Notes under the pieces: model-generated
What the model saw: only the letters and a program-made list of their open reading frames with translations
What the model was told of the DNA's origin: nothing
The model's database searches: none
Shown here: positions 35,783 to 49,789 of the stretch, piece by piece
Numbering within the stretch: the first letter of the stretch is position 1
Layout of the letters: each line of letters starts with the position of its first letter
Program-made: the position numbers and the translations under genes
Assembly: GCF_008014675.1 (NCBI RefSeq)
Contig: NZ_VOXD01000006.1
Location: forward strand, 70,521 to 134,520
Reading direction: 5' to 3'
DNA from: Neolewinella aurantiaca
GTDB lineage: Bacteria; Bacteroidota; Bacteroidia; Chitinophagales; Saprospiraceae
Length of the DNA stretch: 64,000 nt

Positions 35783-36209
35783 AAGTCTGGAGCTATGGGT
35801 TAACGGAAGGTAAAGTACGGCATCATGCTCAGCACTAGATGGGCTTTAACTTAACTTTAGACCAATTACCAGCCGTTGCAGACCAAGGTGTGCAGCCTGA
35901 TGGCAAACCAGATTGGCGGTTGTGATATGGACGGGGTAGCGTTTTCCACAAGCACTCTCTCCGCAGGAAAAGGGACTTGAGCGGCACGCCCCTGGGCTTA
36001 CACACCCTCCGTTGTAAGCCAAGGAACAAATGCCGGCACGATCAAATCTTCAACCCTTCTGCTCCCCTTACAATAACTGAAATTGCCGCCTGTCGTGTCT
36101 CCCCTCTCCCGAGGTGAGGGGCCGGGGGAAAGGGTTTCTGACCGCCCAGGGTGTGAGTAATCCTAGTTGGGAACTATGGTATCTTGCAGATTGTTACACC
36201 CGTAAAGTC
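35783..36209. other. Intergenic region without a gene
   Basis: Divergent spacer of about 430 bp. It contains a single GC-rich element near 36100-36140 (CTCCCCTCTCCCGAGG then GAGGGGCCGGGGG) related to the paired elements at 6516-6698 and 16907-17056. A -7-like TATCTTGC sits at about 36180, about 25 bp before the DUF4230 start. No protein-like frame is seen. Confidence 0.5.
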
Positions 36210-36830
36210 ATGTCCAAACTAACCTTAGTATTAACCACCGCTCTTCTTGCCTTCCTTCTGGGCCTGGCTGTGTTCTGGGGTTTCAGTAAGTCTTCGGCCG
36301 TAGAGACGCAGACGGAAGCAACGGTCTTGTTGGAACAGATTCGCAAGGTCACCAAGCTCGTCACCGTAGAGGGTGACGTCAGCGAACTCTACAACTCTAC
36401 CACCACCCGCAACGTAACTCTGTACATTCCTCTGCCCGCGCGCCTGCGCTTCGATAAAACCGCGACGGTGGAAGTGCGGGGTAAAGTGCTGGTCGGCTAC
36501 AACCTCGAGCAACTGGATATCGACGTCGACGACGCCACCCGCACCGTCCTCATCAGTAACCTGCCCGAGCCGGAAATTCTCGCCATCGATCACGAGTTGA
36601 TCTACCGCAACCTCGAGGAAAGTTGGTTCAACAGCTTCACCGCCGACGATTACAGCGCGCTCAACAAAGAAGCCAAAGACCGCCTGCGCGACGAGGCTCT
36701 GCAGAGCAAGCTCATCCAGGAAGCCCGCCTGGAAGGCAACGGCCTGCTGGAGACCATCCGCTTTTTGGTGGAAGCTTCGGGCTACAGCCTGGAGATTGAA
36801 GGAGAGGCCGATCAACCATCCCAGGGTTAG
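36210..36830 (+). CDS. DUF4230 family membrane-anchored protein
   Basis: A 206-residue protein with one N-terminal transmembrane helix (residues about 4-25) and an extracytoplasmic domain. The order (LLEQIRKVTKLVTVEGDVSE, then RVRGKVLVGYNLEQLDIDV-like strands and LPEPEILAIDHEL) is that of DUF4230, whose role is unknown. ATG 36210 is chosen because the upstream extension lacks a signal and crosses the likely promoter. It converges on the RNA ligase gene. Confidence 0.85.
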   Translation: MSKLTLVLTTALLAFLLGLAVFWGFSKSSAVETQTEATVLLEQIRKVTKLVTVEGDVSELYNSTTTRNVTLYIPLPARLRFDKTATVEVRGKVLVGYNLEQLDIDVDDATRTVLISNLPEPEILAIDHELIYRNLEESWFNSFTADDYSALNKEAKDRLRDEALQSKLIQEARLEGNGLLETIRFLVEASGYSLEIEGEADQPSQG

Positions 36831-36930
36831 CGACACGAACAAGTACGGGCACTCCGTCGTGGAGTACCCGTACTGCTCTGAATCGCAACTGAGCTAAAGC
36901 TGGCGCGGTGATAAACCAGCTCCGTGAGAA

Positions 36931-37923
36931 TCACTGAAGTAACCTAACCCGAACCAGGTTCGCGGCCTCCCGGCCGAAGCCCTTGTTGATTCGCTTCAGG
37001 TCAGCCTTATCCACCCCGGCAAGGCGGTCGGCGTTCTCCTTGTTGAAATCAGCGTAGACATCCTTATTGAACAGACCGAGTACCCGTCCAAAATCCTTGA
37101 TGGTTACGGCACCGATCTTACTCAGTACGTTCTCCAGTCGGTTTTCGTTTACGTACTCCAAGGCAAGGTCGACCAGGATTTGTAGTTCAGGGGCCAGCGG
37201 TTCGGCGGGCTTGGCGGAAGCCTTACGTTGCTTCTTCTCGGCCCACTTCGCGTTCTTGTTCTTCAGGATGACGCGGCTACCGCTGGCAAGGTACTTTACC
37301 TCCACGGGACGAATGACCGTACCCTCAACAACATTCTCCCCGATGTCCGGCAAACCGAGTTCTCCGGGTAGGGTGGAGTTGAAGTCGTTAGGGTATGCCA
37401 AGGCTTCCGCGGCCGGTCCCCGAAACAACGTCTTGGCGTAAAACATCCCGGCGGCTTCGAAGCAGGCGTTGGCGGTATCTACACCCAGGTACTGACCGTT
37501 GGCCGTTACATCAAAGGCATAGAACAGGTTATCGGGGCTGTAGCAAACACCCTTTTGTACCTTCATCGCGTCCTTGACCCGGGGAACATCATCGTGGGGA
37601 TATGCTCCGCCGAACACCTCTCCGAATACGGTCATTTGGTCGAGGCCGGGCATTCCGGCCTTCAGCCGCTTCCAGATGATACGCAGGCTTTTCAGGTTGG
37701 CGGCCAGAATGCGCTCGTGGTGGTAAAAGTTCTCACCGGCTTCGATGGGGCCGCTACGCTTACAGGCTACGAAGTCAACCCCATCGGTCGTGTAAAAACT
37801 CATATTCGCACCGTGCACCTTCTCTTGTACAACGTACTCGCCCGTCCAGTGGCCTTCCAGCTGAATGCGGTTGATGTGTTCCTTACGGTAAGTATTTTCG
37901 ATGGAGTTAAATTTCTTGAACAT
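36931..37923 (-). CDS. RNA ligase, T4 Rnl2 type with C-terminal domain
   Basis: A 330-residue protein strikingly like phage T4 RNA ligase 2, which seals 3'-OH/5'-phosphate nicks in duplex RNA. The adenylated lysine falls at residue 35 in motif I (EKVHGAN; T4 has EKIHGTN, also Lys35). Motif III is VFGEVFGG, IIIa FYAFDV, IV EGTVIRP and V ILKNKNAKWAEKK. The C-terminal domain (residues about 245-330) keeps the Rnl2-specific NRLENVLSKIG and KDFGRVLGL stretches. All nucleotidyl-transferase motifs look intact, so it is probably active in RNA repair. It is a single gene, divergent from purK, with no phage genes nearby. Confidence 0.9.
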   Translation of the reverse strand: MFKKFNSIENTYRKEHINRIQLEGHWTGEYVVQEKVHGANMSFYTTDGVDFVACKRSGPIEAGENFYHHERILAANLKSLRIIWKRLKAGMPGLDQMTVFGEVFGGAYPHDDVPRVKDAMKVQKGVCYSPDNLFYAFDVTANGQYLGVDTANACFEAAGMFYAKTLFRGPAAEALAYPNDFNSTLPGELGLPDIGENVVEGTVIRPVEVKYLASGSRVILKNKNAKWAEKKQRKASAKPAEPLAPELQILVDLALEYVNENRLENVLSKIGAVTIKDFGRVLGLFNKDVYADFNKENADRLAGVDKADLKRINKGFGREAANLVRVRLLQ

Positions 37924-37964
37924 CCGAGATCGTTTTGTTAACAGGATGGGGATGTAATGAAAGC

Positions 37965-37988
37965 TTGGGCGCTAAAAGTTGCGCCCAA
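37965..37988. promoter_or_regulatory. Inverted repeat between the RNA ligase and purK
   Basis: TTGGGCGC (37965-37972), 8 bp, GCGCCCAA (37981-37988): a perfect 8-bp-arm repeat in the 131-bp divergent intergenic region. Could be an operator or an mRNA 5' hairpin of the ligase. Confidence 0.4.
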
Positions 37989-38042
37989 AAATTTAAATCA
38001 GGTCAATTACCGATAGAGAATAGCCAATCTATCAATCTACTC

Positions 38043-38050
38043 TATCTTCG
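38043..38050 (+). promoter_or_regulatory. -7-like element TATCTTCG immediately before purK
   Basis: One mismatch from TAnnTTTG, ending 4 bp before the ATG at 38055. If used, the mRNA is nearly leaderless. Confidence 0.4.
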
Positions 38051-38054
38051 CCCC

Positions 38055-39209
38055 ATGGCAAACAACTCCTCCCCCAGAATCGGCATCCTTGGTGGTGGCC
38101 AGCTCGGCAAAATGCTCTGTCAGGCGGGCGCAGACTGGCACCTCCCCATCCATGTTCTCGATCGTAACCACAGCTTCCCCGCAGCCAACTACGCGACCGT
38201 ATTTCATTCCGGAGACTTCAGCCGTAAGGAAGACGTCCTCGAATTCGGCCGTAAGATGGACATCGTAACCATCGAGATCGAACACATCGATACCGAAGCC
38301 CTGCACCAGCTAGTAGCCGAAGGAATCAAAGTCTACCCCCAGCCCGACAAGATCGACCTGATTAAGGACAAAGGCCTCCAGAAGCAATTCTACGCAGAAG
38401 AAGGCATCGCTACTTCAGATTTCAGCCTTTACGCCGATGCAGCTGCCCTTCGGGCGGCCATTGCGTCCGGGGAGGTTACCCTGCCTTTCGTACAAAAGGC
38501 GAGAACCGGTGGCTACGATGGTCAGGGCGTTGCCGTTATCCGCAACGAGCAGGACATCGAATCCAAATTGCTCGATTGCCCCTGTCTGGCAGAGTCTATG
38601 GTCGACATCGCTAAGGAACTGGCCGTAGTCGTTACCCGTACTCCCTCCGGAGCGATTTCAGTCTTCCCGACGGTAGAGATGGAGTTTCACCCCACCGCCA
38701 ATCTGGTCGAATTCCTCATTTGCCCCGCTGCTATCGACTCGGATACCGACACCCGCGCCGCGAAGCTGGCCATGGAAGTTGCCGAAAAGATGGAGATCGT
38801 TGGCCTGCTTGCCGTAGAACTCTTCCTTACCCCCGAAGGTGAAATCCTGGTCAACGAAGTGGCACCCCGCCCGCATAACAGCGGCCACCATACCATCGAG
38901 GCGTGTATGACAAGCCAGTACGATCAGCACCTTCGTGCAATCATGGACCTTCCCCTCGGGCCTACCGATCTCCTGCGGCCCGGAGCTATGATCAACCTCC
39001 TCGGCGCAGAAGGCCATACCGGCCCTGCAGTCTACGATGGCTGGGACAAACTACTGGCTATACCAGAGGTCTATCCCCACCTCTACGGCAAAGCCGAGAC
39101 CCGCCCCTTCCGCAAAATGGGACATATTACTGCGCTCGGAGATACCGTTCAGATGGCCCGCGAACGGGCTGCTATCGCTAAGGAAGTCGTGCAGGTAATC
39201 AGCCGGTAA
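38055..39209 (+). CDS. purK: N5-carboxyaminoimidazole ribonucleotide synthase
   Basis: ATP-grasp enzyme that carboxylates AIR to N5-CAIR in purine synthesis. The 384-residue product has the N-terminal RIGILGGGQLGKMLCQAG, the VEIEHIDTEAL segment, the ATP-grasp VQKARTGGYDGQGVAVIRN and the C-terminal NEVAPRPHNSGHHTIEAC motif, all typical of PurK. The frame is open 40 codons upstream, but ATG 38055 gives the standard start. purE is not adjacent. Confidence 0.96.
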   Translation: MANNSSPRIGILGGGQLGKMLCQAGADWHLPIHVLDRNHSFPAANYATVFHSGDFSRKEDVLEFGRKMDIVTIEIEHIDTEALHQLVAEGIKVYPQPDKIDLIKDKGLQKQFYAEEGIATSDFSLYADAAALRAAIASGEVTLPFVQKARTGGYDGQGVAVIRNEQDIESKLLDCPCLAESMVDIAKELAVVVTRTPSGAISVFPTVEMEFHPTANLVEFLICPAAIDSDTDTRAAKLAMEVAEKMEIVGLLAVELFLTPEGEILVNEVAPRPHNSGHHTIEACMTSQYDQHLRAIMDLPLGPTDLLRPGAMINLLGAEGHTGPAVYDGWDKLLAIPEVYPHLYGKAETRPFRKMGHITALGDTVQMARERAAIAKEVVQVISR

Positions 39210-39334
39210 ATCTTACGGGCATTCCTTCCGAAACCAGGATCAGGAGAGGTTAAGCGGCAAGTTTTCGTTTTCAGGTCAGCGCGGATAATAATTGTAGGTA
39301 GTTGTATCGACCCTCCCACTACGGTTACTAATTT

Positions 39335-39350
39335 TAGCGAATTTTCGCTA
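39335..39350. promoter_or_regulatory. Palindrome overlapping the GMC gene promoter region
   Basis: TAGCGAA-TT-TTCGCTA, a perfect 7-bp-arm repeat. It overlaps a -7-like TACTTTGC and ends 10 bp before the GTG start, so it is a candidate repressor site. Confidence 0.4.
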
Positions 39351-39360
39351 CTTTGCATCC

Positions 39361-40974
39361 GTGACCTACGACTACATAATCATCGGCGCCGGCTCCGCTG
39401 GCTGCTTACTGGCCAATCGGCTCTCTTCCGACCCGGCCAATAGCGTGCTTCTGGTTGAAGCCGGAGGGCCAGTCAGAAACCCCAACATCATAATTCCCGC
39501 GGGTTACCCGCGGCTGCACCGTACTTCGGTCGATTGGGGTTATTGGTCTGAACCACAAGAGCACTTACTCGGGCGCAAGCTGTACCTGCCCCGTGGCAAG
39601 GTACTGGGCGGAAGCAGCTCGACCAACGCGATGGCTTACGTACGGGGCAACCGGGCCGATTATGATGACTGGGCAGAATCAGGCAATGAAGGCTGGGGCT
39701 ACGACGATATCCTCCCGTATTTCACCCGTCACGAAAGCAATGCTGACATCGTTAACCGCTTCCACGGTCAGGACGGAGAACTTAACGTTGAGTTCCCGAG
39801 TCGCTACCGATCCCCTTTTGCGGAATCCTTCGTCAATGCCTGCGAAGAAAAGGGCTTTGACCGCAACGACGACTACAACGGTAAAGAGCAAGCGGGGGCC
39901 GGACTCTTCCAATTTACGATCAAAGACGGTCGCCGGCATTCGGCGTATACCGCTTTCCTTAAGCCGGTAATGGCGCGCAAAAATCTGCGGGTACTCACCA
40001 ATACTCACGTCGTAAGGGTGGTGGTTAAGAACGATCGGGCAGTTGGTGTAATGGCAGAAGAGAACGGTAAAAGCCAGCAGTTGCTGTCAGCCCGAAAAGA
40101 GGTCATTCTTTCGGCGGGCTCTTTTGGGTCCCCTCAGTTGCTGATGCTCTCGGGTATCGGCGCTAAGGCAGAGCTTGGCCAAAACGGTATTGATTGCGTT
40201 TGTGATGCTCCCGGAGTGGGAAAGAACCTTCAGGATCATTTGTTCTGTCCTATCGGAGCCCTCTCCAAACAACAGATCGGTCAAAACCATTACGTTCGTC
40301 CGTTTCAGATGGCAAGGGCAGCTCTGGATTACCTCGTGCGTGGCAAAGGCGTTCTCAATAACAGTCCTCTGGAAGCGGTTGCTTTTGGCTCAAGTTCCCT
40401 GAGCCCGGGCCGGGTTGATTTTCAGTTTCATTTCTCGTCCTTCCACGTCGGGGAAGGTTACGACTCTGATTTCCACAACTACCGCACCTTCCCGGACCGG
40501 GAAGATGGCTTTACGGTGCTGCCGTCCTTATTGCGCCCTGCCTCCCGTGGTACTTTGCACCTGCGTTCGCGCCACCCACAAGACCACCCCGTCATCCAAC
40601 CGAATTTCCTCTCCCACGAAGACGACCGAAAGGTGATGCTCGAGGCCACTAAAAAAGCCATTGAAGTGATGGAGGCAGATGCATTTTCGCGGCACCGCAA
40701 ACGCCGCTTTTCACCGCCCGACATCAGCTCAGACGACGCAATCTGGCTGCACATTCAGCGCCAGGTCGAAACGATTTACCACCCTGTGGGCACCTGCAAG
40801 ATGGGCCACGACGAACTGGCGGTAGTGGACGAAAAGTTACGCGTAAGAGGGATTGACAATCTCCGTGTTGTGGACGCCAGTGTGATGCCAACCATTGTGA
40901 GCGGCAACACAAATGCTCCGGTTTACATGATAGCAGAAAAAGGAGCGGATATGATTTTGAACTCTTCCGACTGA
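39361..40974 (+). CDS. GMC-family FAD-dependent oxidoreductase (choline dehydrogenase-like)
   Basis: A 537-residue flavoenzyme oxidising an alcohol or sugar, cytoplasmic as written (no signal peptide). The FAD motif IIIGAGSAGCLLANRLS is at residues 7-23, GGSSSTNAMAYVRG near 81, GSFGSPQLLMLSGIG near 255, and the catalytic histidine region YHPVGTCKMG near 473 with the C-terminal NTNAPVYMIAEKGAD. Start is GTG at 39361; a -7-like TACTTTGC and a palindrome lie right before it. GTLHLRSRHP, a conserved GMC strand, is encoded by a near-copy of the 19-bp motif. Confidence 0.92.
   Translation: MTYDYIIIGAGSAGCLLANRLSSDPANSVLLVEAGGPVRNPNIIIPAGYPRLHRTSVDWGYWSEPQEHLLGRKLYLPRGKVLGGSSSTNAMAYVRGNRADYDDWAESGNEGWGYDDILPYFTRHESNADIVNRFHGQDGELNVEFPSRYRSPFAESFVNACEEKGFDRNDDYNGKEQAGAGLFQFTIKDGRRHSAYTAFLKPVMARKNLRVLTNTHVVRVVVKNDRAVGVMAEENGKSQQLLSARKEVILSAGSFGSPQLLMLSGIGAKAELGQNGIDCVCDAPGVGKNLQDHLFCPIGALSKQQIGQNHYVRPFQMARAALDYLVRGKGVLNNSPLEAVAFGSSSLSPGRVDFQFHFSSFHVGEGYDSDFHNYRTFPDREDGFTVLPSLLRPASRGTLHLRSRHPQDHPVIQPNFLSHEDDRKVMLEATKKAIEVMEADAFSRHRKRRFSPPDISSDDAIWLHIQRQVETIYHPVGTCKMGHDELAVVDEKLRVRGIDNLRVVDASVMPTIVSGNTNAPVYMIAEKGADMILNSSD
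40556..40574 (-). repeat. 19-bp motif-like sequence inside the GMC gene
   Basis: Plus strand TGCACCTGCGTTCGCGCCA, one mismatch; triplet GAA. It encodes a strand conserved in the family, so it could be convergent codon choice. Confidence 0.5.
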
Positions 40975-48634: not shown

Positions 48635-49126
48635 TTAGAAAGGCAGATCATCATTGACTGTTTCCAATACTGTTTCGTCCAGCGATACGGCAGTTCGTTC
48701 GCGTCGGCGCTGTGTTTTGTTATCAATTGCCGCCGGAGCCGGGTCGGCAACCATAGTGGAAGACATTTCCTGATCGCCCAGTTGCCGGTCGCCTCCACCC
48801 AGAAAAGAAAACGACTGAGCGATTACCTCCGCAGAAGTACGGTTTTGGTCGTGCTTATCGACCCACTTACGGTACCGCATTGATCCCACGATCGATACTT
48901 GTTTCCCACGGTCCAGGTACTGATCAAAGAGCTCAGCGAGTTTACCGAAGGCCTTCACGCGGTGCCAGTCCGTCCGGGTTTGTTTGTTGCCATTGCGGTC
49001 ACGGTAATACTCGTTAGTGGCCAGCGAGAACTCGGCAACAACTATTCCGCTCGGTAGCGTAGTTGTTTTGGGAGCATCGCCGAGGCGGCCAATAAGGTTG
49101 ATGAAATTGCTGGTATTGATATTCAT
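48635..49126 (-). CDS. ssb: Single-stranded DNA-binding protein, copy 1
   Basis: A 163-residue SSB with the OB fold (LIGRLGDAPKTTTLPSGIVVAEFSLATNEY, then TDWHRVKAFGKLAEL) and a C-terminal acidic tip ending DDLPF, which recruits repair and replication proteins. This is the complete SSB form expected for the housekeeping protein. A near-duplicate lies 162 bp upstream on the same strand. Confidence 0.93.
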   Translation of the reverse strand: MNINTSNFINLIGRLGDAPKTTTLPSGIVVAEFSLATNEYYRDRNGNKQTRTDWHRVKAFGKLAELFDQYLDRGKQVSIVGSMRYRKWVDKHDQNRTSAEVIAQSFSFLGGGDRQLGDQEMSSTMVADPAPAAIDNKTQRRRERTAVSLDETVLETVNDDLPF

Positions 49127-49288
49127 GGCGATTATATTTAAAGAGGGAAAAATCTCCGGCCCGGTGCAACCGCAAAGGGTAACGGCGTCGCGGACCGGAG
49201 CAAAAAGGGTGATTAATGATTACAGTGTCGGGCCTTGCCCGGTAAAGTGTCAAGCGTAATCTGATGACGAAAACGCTGGTGCAGAACG

Positions 49289-49789
49289 CTACGACTCAAG
49301 CTCTTCAACGGCCTGAATCACCTCGCCAATGTCGGCGGTCGGGGTTTTGGGACGGGCGGCGGTTTTCTTGCGGCGGGAAGAGGTTTTCTTCGCCACCGGC
49401 TCCGCTACCATCATCGCCTCGTGAGCGTCTTCGATCATAGCCTCCTCTTTGTTTTTGCGACTGCCGCCCAGGAAGGTGAACTCTTCGGCAATCACTTCCG
49501 CTGATGTCCGGGTCTGCTCAAACTTATCTACCCATCTGCGGTAACGCATGGTGCCGACAATCGAGATCGGGCTACCGCACTGCAGGTGCTGATCGAAGAG
49601 TTCCGCAAGTTTGCCGTAGGCCTTTACGCGGTGCCATTCGGTCCGGGTCTGGCGCTCGCCCTGCTTATCCCGGTAATATTCATTGGTGGCGAGAGAAAAT
49701 TCTGTAGCGGTTTTACCCGTCTTGAGAACAACGGTCTTAGGGTCAGTACCAAGATTGCCGGTAAGGTGGATGTGGTTACGTACGTTCAT
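49289..49789 (-). CDS. Single-stranded DNA-binding protein, copy 2, lacking the acidic tip
   Basis: A 166-residue paralogue with the same OB fold (LTGNLGTDPKTVVLKTGKTATEF, TEWHRVKAYGKLAELFDQH). After the OB domain the tail is Lys/Ala-rich (AKKTSSRRKKTAARPKT) and ends AVEELES, with no DDxPF-type tip. It should bind ssDNA but not recruit partners the usual way. Upstream of ssb copy 1 in the same direction; co-transcription is possible. Confidence 0.9.
   Translation of the reverse strand: MNVRNHIHLTGNLGTDPKTVVLKTGKTATEFSLATNEYYRDKQGERQTRTEWHRVKAYGKLAELFDQHLQCGSPISIVGTMRYRRWVDKFEQTRTSAEVIAEEFTFLGGSRKNKEEAMIEDAHEAMMVAEPVAKKTSSRRKKTAARPKTPTADIGEVIQAVEELES

Follow-up and report, generated by a model that had tools for sequence, protein, structure and literature searches.

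A patchily distributed T4 Rnl2-type RNA ligase of Neolewinella aurantiaca and its co-occurrence with RlaP nucleotidyltransferases

The ligase gene and its surroundings

We analysed a 64,000-nucleotide stretch of the genome of Neolewinella aurantiaca (Bacteroidota, Saprospiraceae; RefSeq assembly GCF_008014675.1, contig NZ_VOXD01000006.1, positions 70,521 to 134,520 of the forward strand), hereafter the window, in which a gene for an RNA ligase of the T4 Rnl2 type lies between a purK gene and a gene of the DUF4230 family. The features of this locus, in window positions, are the following:

36931..37923, minus strand: Rnl2-type RNA ligase gene, ATG at 37923, 330 aa, with Pfam, PHROG and PDB matches
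37261..37839, minus strand: nucleotidyltransferase domain PF09414, residues 29-221, from Pfam and a residue check
37804..37821, minus strand: motif I KVHGAN, lysine 35 to asparagine 40, with the predicted AMP-accepting lysine
36964..37176, minus strand: T4_Rnl2_C C-terminal domain PF18043, residues 250-320, with R262 and D288
38055..39209, plus strand: purK (PurK_C), divergent neighbour of the ligase, from Pfam
36210..36830, plus strand: DUF4230 gene, convergent neighbour of the ligase, from Pfam
37965..37988, no strand: inverted repeat with perfect 8-nt arms and an 8-nt loop, in the divergent ligase/purK gap
36842..36874, no strand: inverted repeat with 14-nt arms, a possible terminator, in the gap where the DUF4230 gene and the ligase converge at their 3' ends

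Both Rnl2 domains exceeded their Pfam gathering cut-offs of 27 on the window protein, with 73.5 bits (2.9e-20) for PF09414 (RNA_ligase) and 67.3 bits (1.6e-18) for PF18043 (T4_Rnl2_C). The protein also matched PHROG 548 ('RNA ligase', 1e-71) and, in a PDB sequence search, the full-length T4 Rnl2 (2hvq, 3.6e-29). The full-length reading frame noticed in a preliminary description of this DNA, where its strand was absent, is present, on the minus strand. The NCBIfam profile TIGR02307 aligned over its positions 1-318 of 326 with 186.2 bits, below its equivalog cut-off of 197.15, a threshold passed by four relatives from other families of the class (202-209 bits); because this cut-off was missed, the protein is filed as Rnl2-type by its Pfam domains and not under TIGR02307. 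A second PF09414 match in the same genome, flanked by an exonuclease-like gene on one side and an Lhr-like helicase on the other, was rejected as an RNA ligase and read as an ATP-dependent DNA ligase (both by eye).

Aligned with T4 Rnl2, the window protein places its lysine 35 on T4 K35 and, with H37, G38 and N40, displays the KxHG(x)N lysine motif. Among twelve named T4 residues, which we take to be the important ones of that enzyme, eleven are kept, namely the lysine together with H37, N40, R56, E102, F137, E200, K221, K223, R262 and D288 (T4 H37, N40, R55, E99, F119, E204, K225, K227, R266 and D292), and the twelfth, T4 E296, is an aspartate. The same eleven are identical in the 12 other bacterial rows of the window group, bar a tyrosine for F119 in one, and the aspartate at the E296 position recurs in 12/12 of these rows. 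The alignment bears out the intact nucleotidyltransferase motifs and the active lysine at residue 35 that had been described from the letters, and the Rnl2-specific C-terminal domain is likewise kept, with its PF18043 match and its SKIG and KDFG stretches, the aspartate for T4 E296 being its one noted change.

An AlphaFold2 model built on a 15-row alignment (mean pLDDT 86.5, pTM 0.66) retrieved the T4 Rnl2 structures 2hvr and 2hvq as top Foldseek matches in the PDB (E 1.3e-21 to 1.1e-20, TM 0.56-0.60), with a large rmsd that we read as a predicted difference in the angle between the two domains; the next matches were the T4 nucleotidyltransferase domain 1s68 (TM on target 0.79) and then the trypanosome REL1. 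By homology, the window protein belongs to the ATP-dependent RNA ligases of the T4 Rnl2 type, and the sealing of 3'-OH/5'-P nicks in duplex RNA is its likely, predicted activity.

As a check for phage genes, nine larger proteins encoded between 28.7 and 43.6 kb of the window were run through Pfam and PHROG. Pfam recognised an FAD-binding protein, a short-chain dehydrogenase, DUF5686, DUF4230, PurK, a GMC oxidoreductase, a NUDIX protein, HemD and DUF4271. PHROG matched three of the nine (a FabG-like reductase, the NUDIX hydrolase and, through a family of unknown function, the FAD-binding protein), and neither database returned a structural, packaging, lysis or integration phage family among these neighbours, in agreement with the preliminary statement that no phage gene lies nearby. 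The composition of the ligase gene (GC 0.549, GC3 0.686) is within one standard deviation of that of the 43 other window ORFs (0.543 +/- 0.029 and 0.624 +/- 0.063). No RNA-repair gene was recognised by eye among the neighbours, and no Pnkp or Hen1 partner was recognised beside the ligase. Elsewhere in the window, a Macro-domain protein (PF01661, 57166-57627), of a family that can process ADP-ribose derivatives, is encoded 20 kb from the ligase, and two adjoining genes at 48635-49789 resemble, by eye, similar single-stranded DNA-binding proteins, one of which (48635-49126) matches PHROG 44.

The inverted repeat between the ligase and purK, already pointed out from the letters, is real in its perfect arms and in its folding (-15.9 kcal/mol, z -4.1, with 1 of 200 local shuffles as stable), but it is not conserved: in the corresponding stretch of the nearest relative (locus L015, described below) the arms have changed and the repeat is lost. 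A terminator-like scan of the ligase region gave 2 sites against 2.2 expected. With nothing from Rfam at gathering scores over positions 36000-39500, no further copy in the window even with 3 mismatches, and its arms changed in L015, this repeat was set aside as a regulatory element.

Phylogeny and distribution of the ligase

Two ligase trees were computed, with bacterial rows drawn from Bacteroidota only and viral ones from nine named phages and one pattern-based scan, of whose 92 confirmed loci the best 80 were taken (L072, L106 and L107 gave no ORF). The first, under a mixture model and including a second bacterial group, was thinned from 108 to 71 rows by removing phage and virus sequences more than 70% identical and bacterial ones more than 95% identical (L053 among them). 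The second held 63 rows under a simpler model: three family members were added, and the 8 bacterial rows of the second group were taken out, as were the long phage/virus rows L066, L108 and L146. In the first tree, the window ligase sat in a starred clade made up of six rows from its own family (support 100/98); this clade lay within a larger starred one of 13 Bacteroidota rows (98/96), and the named phages, T4 included, stood elsewhere. In the second, it fell in a starred nine-row own-family clade (100/99), and 16 Bacteroidota rows were parted from 47 phage/virus rows at 100/97, with a bootstrap not fully settled (correlation 0.943). This branch means that the groups are separate and says nothing on the direction of gene movement; phages of Lewinella-like hosts may be missing from the trees.

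Nesting of the window ligase among phage sequences was found in neither tree for the rows sampled, and the phylogeny that had been proposed as a check thus sets it in a Bacteroidota clade apart from the sampled phages. Of the two patterns that the preliminary description regarded as telling against its reading, membership of a recent phage clade and scattered presence in relatives, we therefore found the second but not the first. The closest sequences to the window ligase are bacterial, 46-51% identical within the family, and the nearest viral contigs are 41-46% identical among the best 80 of the 92 confirmed loci. A first viral scan for ligase relatives gave none; relatives occur in 1369 of the 50,697 phage records.

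A gyrB tree grouped the window genome with three ligase-free congeners (100/100). It joined G114 to G003 (100/99), whereas in the ligase tree G114 was sister to G055 (100/96), and the ligase of G115 stood outside the family ligase clade in both ligase trees. This local disagreement suggests transfer and loss, the deeper gyrB branches being weak.

The second Bacteroidota group, of distant Rnl2-like ligases, comprised eight loci (L033, L034, L035, L036, L037, L056, L149 and L150), at one of which (L033) a gene for a 2OG-Fe(II) oxygenase (AlkB-like, Pfam PF13532) stands directly before the ligase. Distant Rnl2-like ligases with no listed gene, 25-28% identical, were also seen on linear plasmids of Embleya and Streptomyces (L151 and L152), the only 2 matches obtained at E 1e-5 from 72,556 plasmid records.

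With the window protein as query, a ligase was found in 12 of 199 family genomes, the window's own included; according to the tree, seven of these belong to the window ligase group and five to the second group, whose family members are about 33-38% identical to the window ligase. With the alignment as query, 19 of 398 family genomes matched (10 complete window-group members, 1 fragment and 8 second-group members), as did 5 of 395 genomes of a class draw; TIGR02307 as query matched 7 of 395 genomes of a phylum draw, the window's own being counted in both draws. A single-protein scan of genome contigs gave 2 ligase loci. Within the genus, represented by 21 genomes counting the window's, the ligase is intact in one, reduced to a 3' fragment in another (G1105, locus L015) and unmatched in the remaining 19, among them a genome of only 55% completeness.

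In L015, purK (93% identical) and the DUF4230 gene (89%) flank the ligase fragment as in the window, and 505 nt of window sequence are missing, a gap that opens shortly before the start codon, reaches roughly codon 167 and removes the catalytic half; this gap may be an assembly error of the MAG. Over the 163 retained codons, the ligase differs from L015 by a dN of 0.124 and a dS of 1.286 (dN/dS about 0.10), the values for purK being 0.043 and 1.173 (NG86 throughout). The retained half is under purifying selection, and the ligase has therefore been constrained for most of the time since the split from L015. Among the ligase-bearing family genomes examined, the purK/DUF4230 neighbourhood is kept only in L015; in the stretches fetched from 17 others, some on contigs of 4-5 kb, no window neighbour was found beside the ligase, a single 23% match in L029 being unrelated. 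Comparison with an empty site in congeners was attempted and abandoned: because purK and the DUF4230 gene are differently placed in G006, G116 and G193, there was no clean empty site.

The gene had been called resident, which in the sense of conserved does not hold, the ligase being unmatched in 19 of the 20 other genus genomes and deprived of its catalytic half in the twentieth. Nor is the locus conserved in relatives, given the 19 of 398 family genomes with a match and a purK/DUF4230 setting confined to L015. We infer that the ligase is an accessory gene in this lineage, an occasional extra of the family that would have passed between Bacteroidota and is easily lost.

Co-occurrence with RlaP nucleotidyltransferases

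The window genome also encodes a tandem pair of RlaP nucleotidyltransferases (G000:C2:123173-124366), which does not share an operon with the ligase, both RlaP matches lying on contig C2 and the ligase on C61. RlaP was detected in 57 of 199 family genomes and was concentrated in those bearing a ligase (11/12 versus 46/187 of the others, Fisher p 4.7e-6, without correction for phylogeny), including all seven genomes of the window ligase group. Counted by genus, with RlaP in the ligase-bearing genome itself, the ratio was 10/11 versus 33/101 (p 2.6e-4, without species-tree correction). RtcB, taken as a control, was present in 12/12 ligase-bearing and 111/187 other genomes (p 0.0025), and is not a clean control because it also co-occurs with the ligase; for genomes of at least 5 Mb, its p value was 0.47, on a list biased towards RtcB-positive genomes. 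Among the RtcB-positive genomes of at least 5 Mb (n = 83, complete list), RlaP was found in 11/12 versus 33/71 (p 0.003, again without phylogeny correction).

The association has exceptions in both directions. One congener (G116) has RlaP without a ligase, and one genome with a second-group ligase (G022) lacks RlaP; moreover, as 46 of the 187 ligase-free genomes carry RlaP, the latter does not need the ligase. In two other genomes (G505 and G284), an RlaP pair 39-44% identical to that of the window genome (Pfam was run on the G505 pair) lies 1.7-2.9 kb from a window-clade ligase, with a DUF434/DUF5616 gene between. The ligase of another locus (L052) has, by Pfam, a calcineurin-like phosphoesterase and two RNase_T exonucleases in its surroundings, along with a cREC domain, an RNase H-like protein and two ATP-grasp proteins, a setting that L054 resembles by eye. 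Neither the ligase nor RlaP gave a PADLOC match at E 0.01.

The window genome carries RtcB-family genes at two places (L179 and L180), with differing scores, L180 being confirmed by Pfam. RlaP adjoins RtcB in one family genome (G117:C88:43894-45935), so that where Rnl2 is lacking RtcB may be another partner of RlaP. In addition, the second RlaP of the window genome has a relative (L112:6934-7791, 26% identity) on a viral contig that also bears an Rnl2 ligase. In two genomes of genus g63, an unassigned protein of 223-248 aa is encoded directly after the ligase (L203:1874-2542 and L205:3392-4135); the two copies are about 55% identical, and one gave a marginal CPDase match in Pfam (21.7 bits versus a cut-off of 21).

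Proposed role and comparison with known systems

We propose, with somewhat better than even confidence, that the gene encodes a nick-sealing RNA ligase of accessory character that has spread horizontally and works together with RlaP on RNA cut by nucleases. In this scheme, AMP from ATP would be loaded onto lysine 35 and handed on to a 5'-phosphate, either at a nick in RNA that a complementary strand holds together or, as an alternative substrate, where a stem-loop RNA (a tRNA, for example) has been cleaved and its ends remain paired; the 5'-phosphate end would then be joined to the 3'-OH while the C-terminal domain grips the duplex. The unlinked RlaP pair would restore nucleotides lost from the broken ends, the ligase providing the sealing step of an RNA-repair kit that may protect the cell against RNA-cutting toxins or anticodon nucleases. 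The resident RNA repair function of the preliminary description survives in part: an intact, selected Rnl2-type ligase does lie outside any recognisable prophage, but its residence is not a conserved one.

Three other explanations were weighed against this proposal. The gene might be recent phage cargo, left in the chromosome by a T4-like or jumbo phage and playing no part in the host, as the phage records holding a relative (1369/50,697), the viral contigs with identities reaching 46% (among the best 80 of 92 confirmed loci), the scattered presence and the loss of the 5' half in L015 could indicate; we nevertheless hold it to be very improbable, given that the closest sequences are bacterial (46-51% in the family), that the 16 bacterial rows stand apart from the 47 phage/virus rows (100/97, for phages sampled by one pattern-based scan plus nine named ones), that structural and integration phage genes are absent among the neighbours tested, that GC and GC3 are like those of other window ORFs and that dN/dS is about 0.10. 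An absence from 19 of 20 congeners is ill-suited to a housekeeping role, and it speaks, together with the RlaP co-occurrence, against a stand-alone ligase acting on a housekeeping or regulatory RNA (RNA circularisation, mRNA or rRNA processing) unrelated to damage repair or RlaP. Such a role, which we consider unlikely, would fit the lack of a recognised repair gene next door in the window and in most family loci (by eye), and has a parallel in the archaeal ATP-dependent RNA ligase that, in the available text of PMC9014305, circularises C/D box RNAs.

Patchy spread is typical of conflict genes, and repair of ribotoxin damage is documented for another bacterial Rnl in the accessible portion of PMC4411300, so that the ligase could instead be a self-antidote to a toxin or nuclease of the same cell (abortive infection, toxin-antitoxin), its link with RlaP arising only from large genomes. 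We give this little credence, since no toxin was recognised beside the ligase loci (by eye, over the first 90-110 residues of the ORFs), PADLOC was without a match for ligase or RlaP, and the link with RlaP persists when only RtcB-positive genomes of 5 Mb or more are counted. Returning to the proposed ligase-RlaP partnership, a bolder version, in which a distinct non-phage Bacteroidota Rnl2 lineage and an unlinked RlaP would form a split restore-then-seal kit against RNA-cutting toxins, is put forward tentatively, as a rather doubtful possibility. If true, it would give Rnl2 a biological role in bacteria, and the RlaP co-occurrence together with a bacterial clade apart from the sampled phages offers a testable pairing in bacteria. 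Our literature search found no paper on the window ligase clade in Saprospiria, and we do not claim its absence from print.

T4 RNA ligase 2 (gp24.1, Rnl2; 2hvq, 2hvr, 1s68) shares with the window ligase the two-domain plan, lysine 35, the nucleotidyltransferase motifs, the C-terminal R and D residues and the predicted fold, but the window ligase is only about 32% identical, is chromosomal and stands outside the T4 clade. The Trypanosoma RNA editing ligase REL1 (1xdn) resembles it in the nucleotidyltransferase domain (PDB sequence match 8.7e-14), its role being the editing of organelle mRNA, unlike the setting of the window ligase. Burroughs and Aravind, in 2016, reportedly predicted RNA-repair systems in which RNA ligases are combined with RlaP and cREC. 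As far as the available text of PMC7824862 goes, such predicted ligase-RlaP-cREC systems use the same ligase type, and RlaP and cREC do occur near window-clade relatives, but the window ligase is alone, with its RlaP pair unlinked on another contig; the same text has the RlaP of jumbo phages acting alongside RNA ligases, with a predicted role in restoring nucleotides before ligation. The bacterial Pnkp1-Rnl-Hen1 complex, in the accessible portion of PMC4411300, is likewise a case of a bacterial RNA ligase presumed to undo ribotoxin cuts, from which the window gene differs in that no Pnkp or Hen1 partner was recognised beside it. More broadly, Rnl2 members in bacteria are on record (available text of PMC3400036), the family has been linked to nick sealing in duplex RNA (PMC4606414, excerpt), and RNA ligases 2 were portrayed in 2015, in the portion of PMC4599027 at hand, as having a broad but punctuated distribution, chiefly in viruses and bacteria, with a role unknown outside kinetoplastids. 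To this picture, the present analysis adds a clade of Bacteroidota ligases apart from the sampled phages, the loss in L015 and the link with RlaP.
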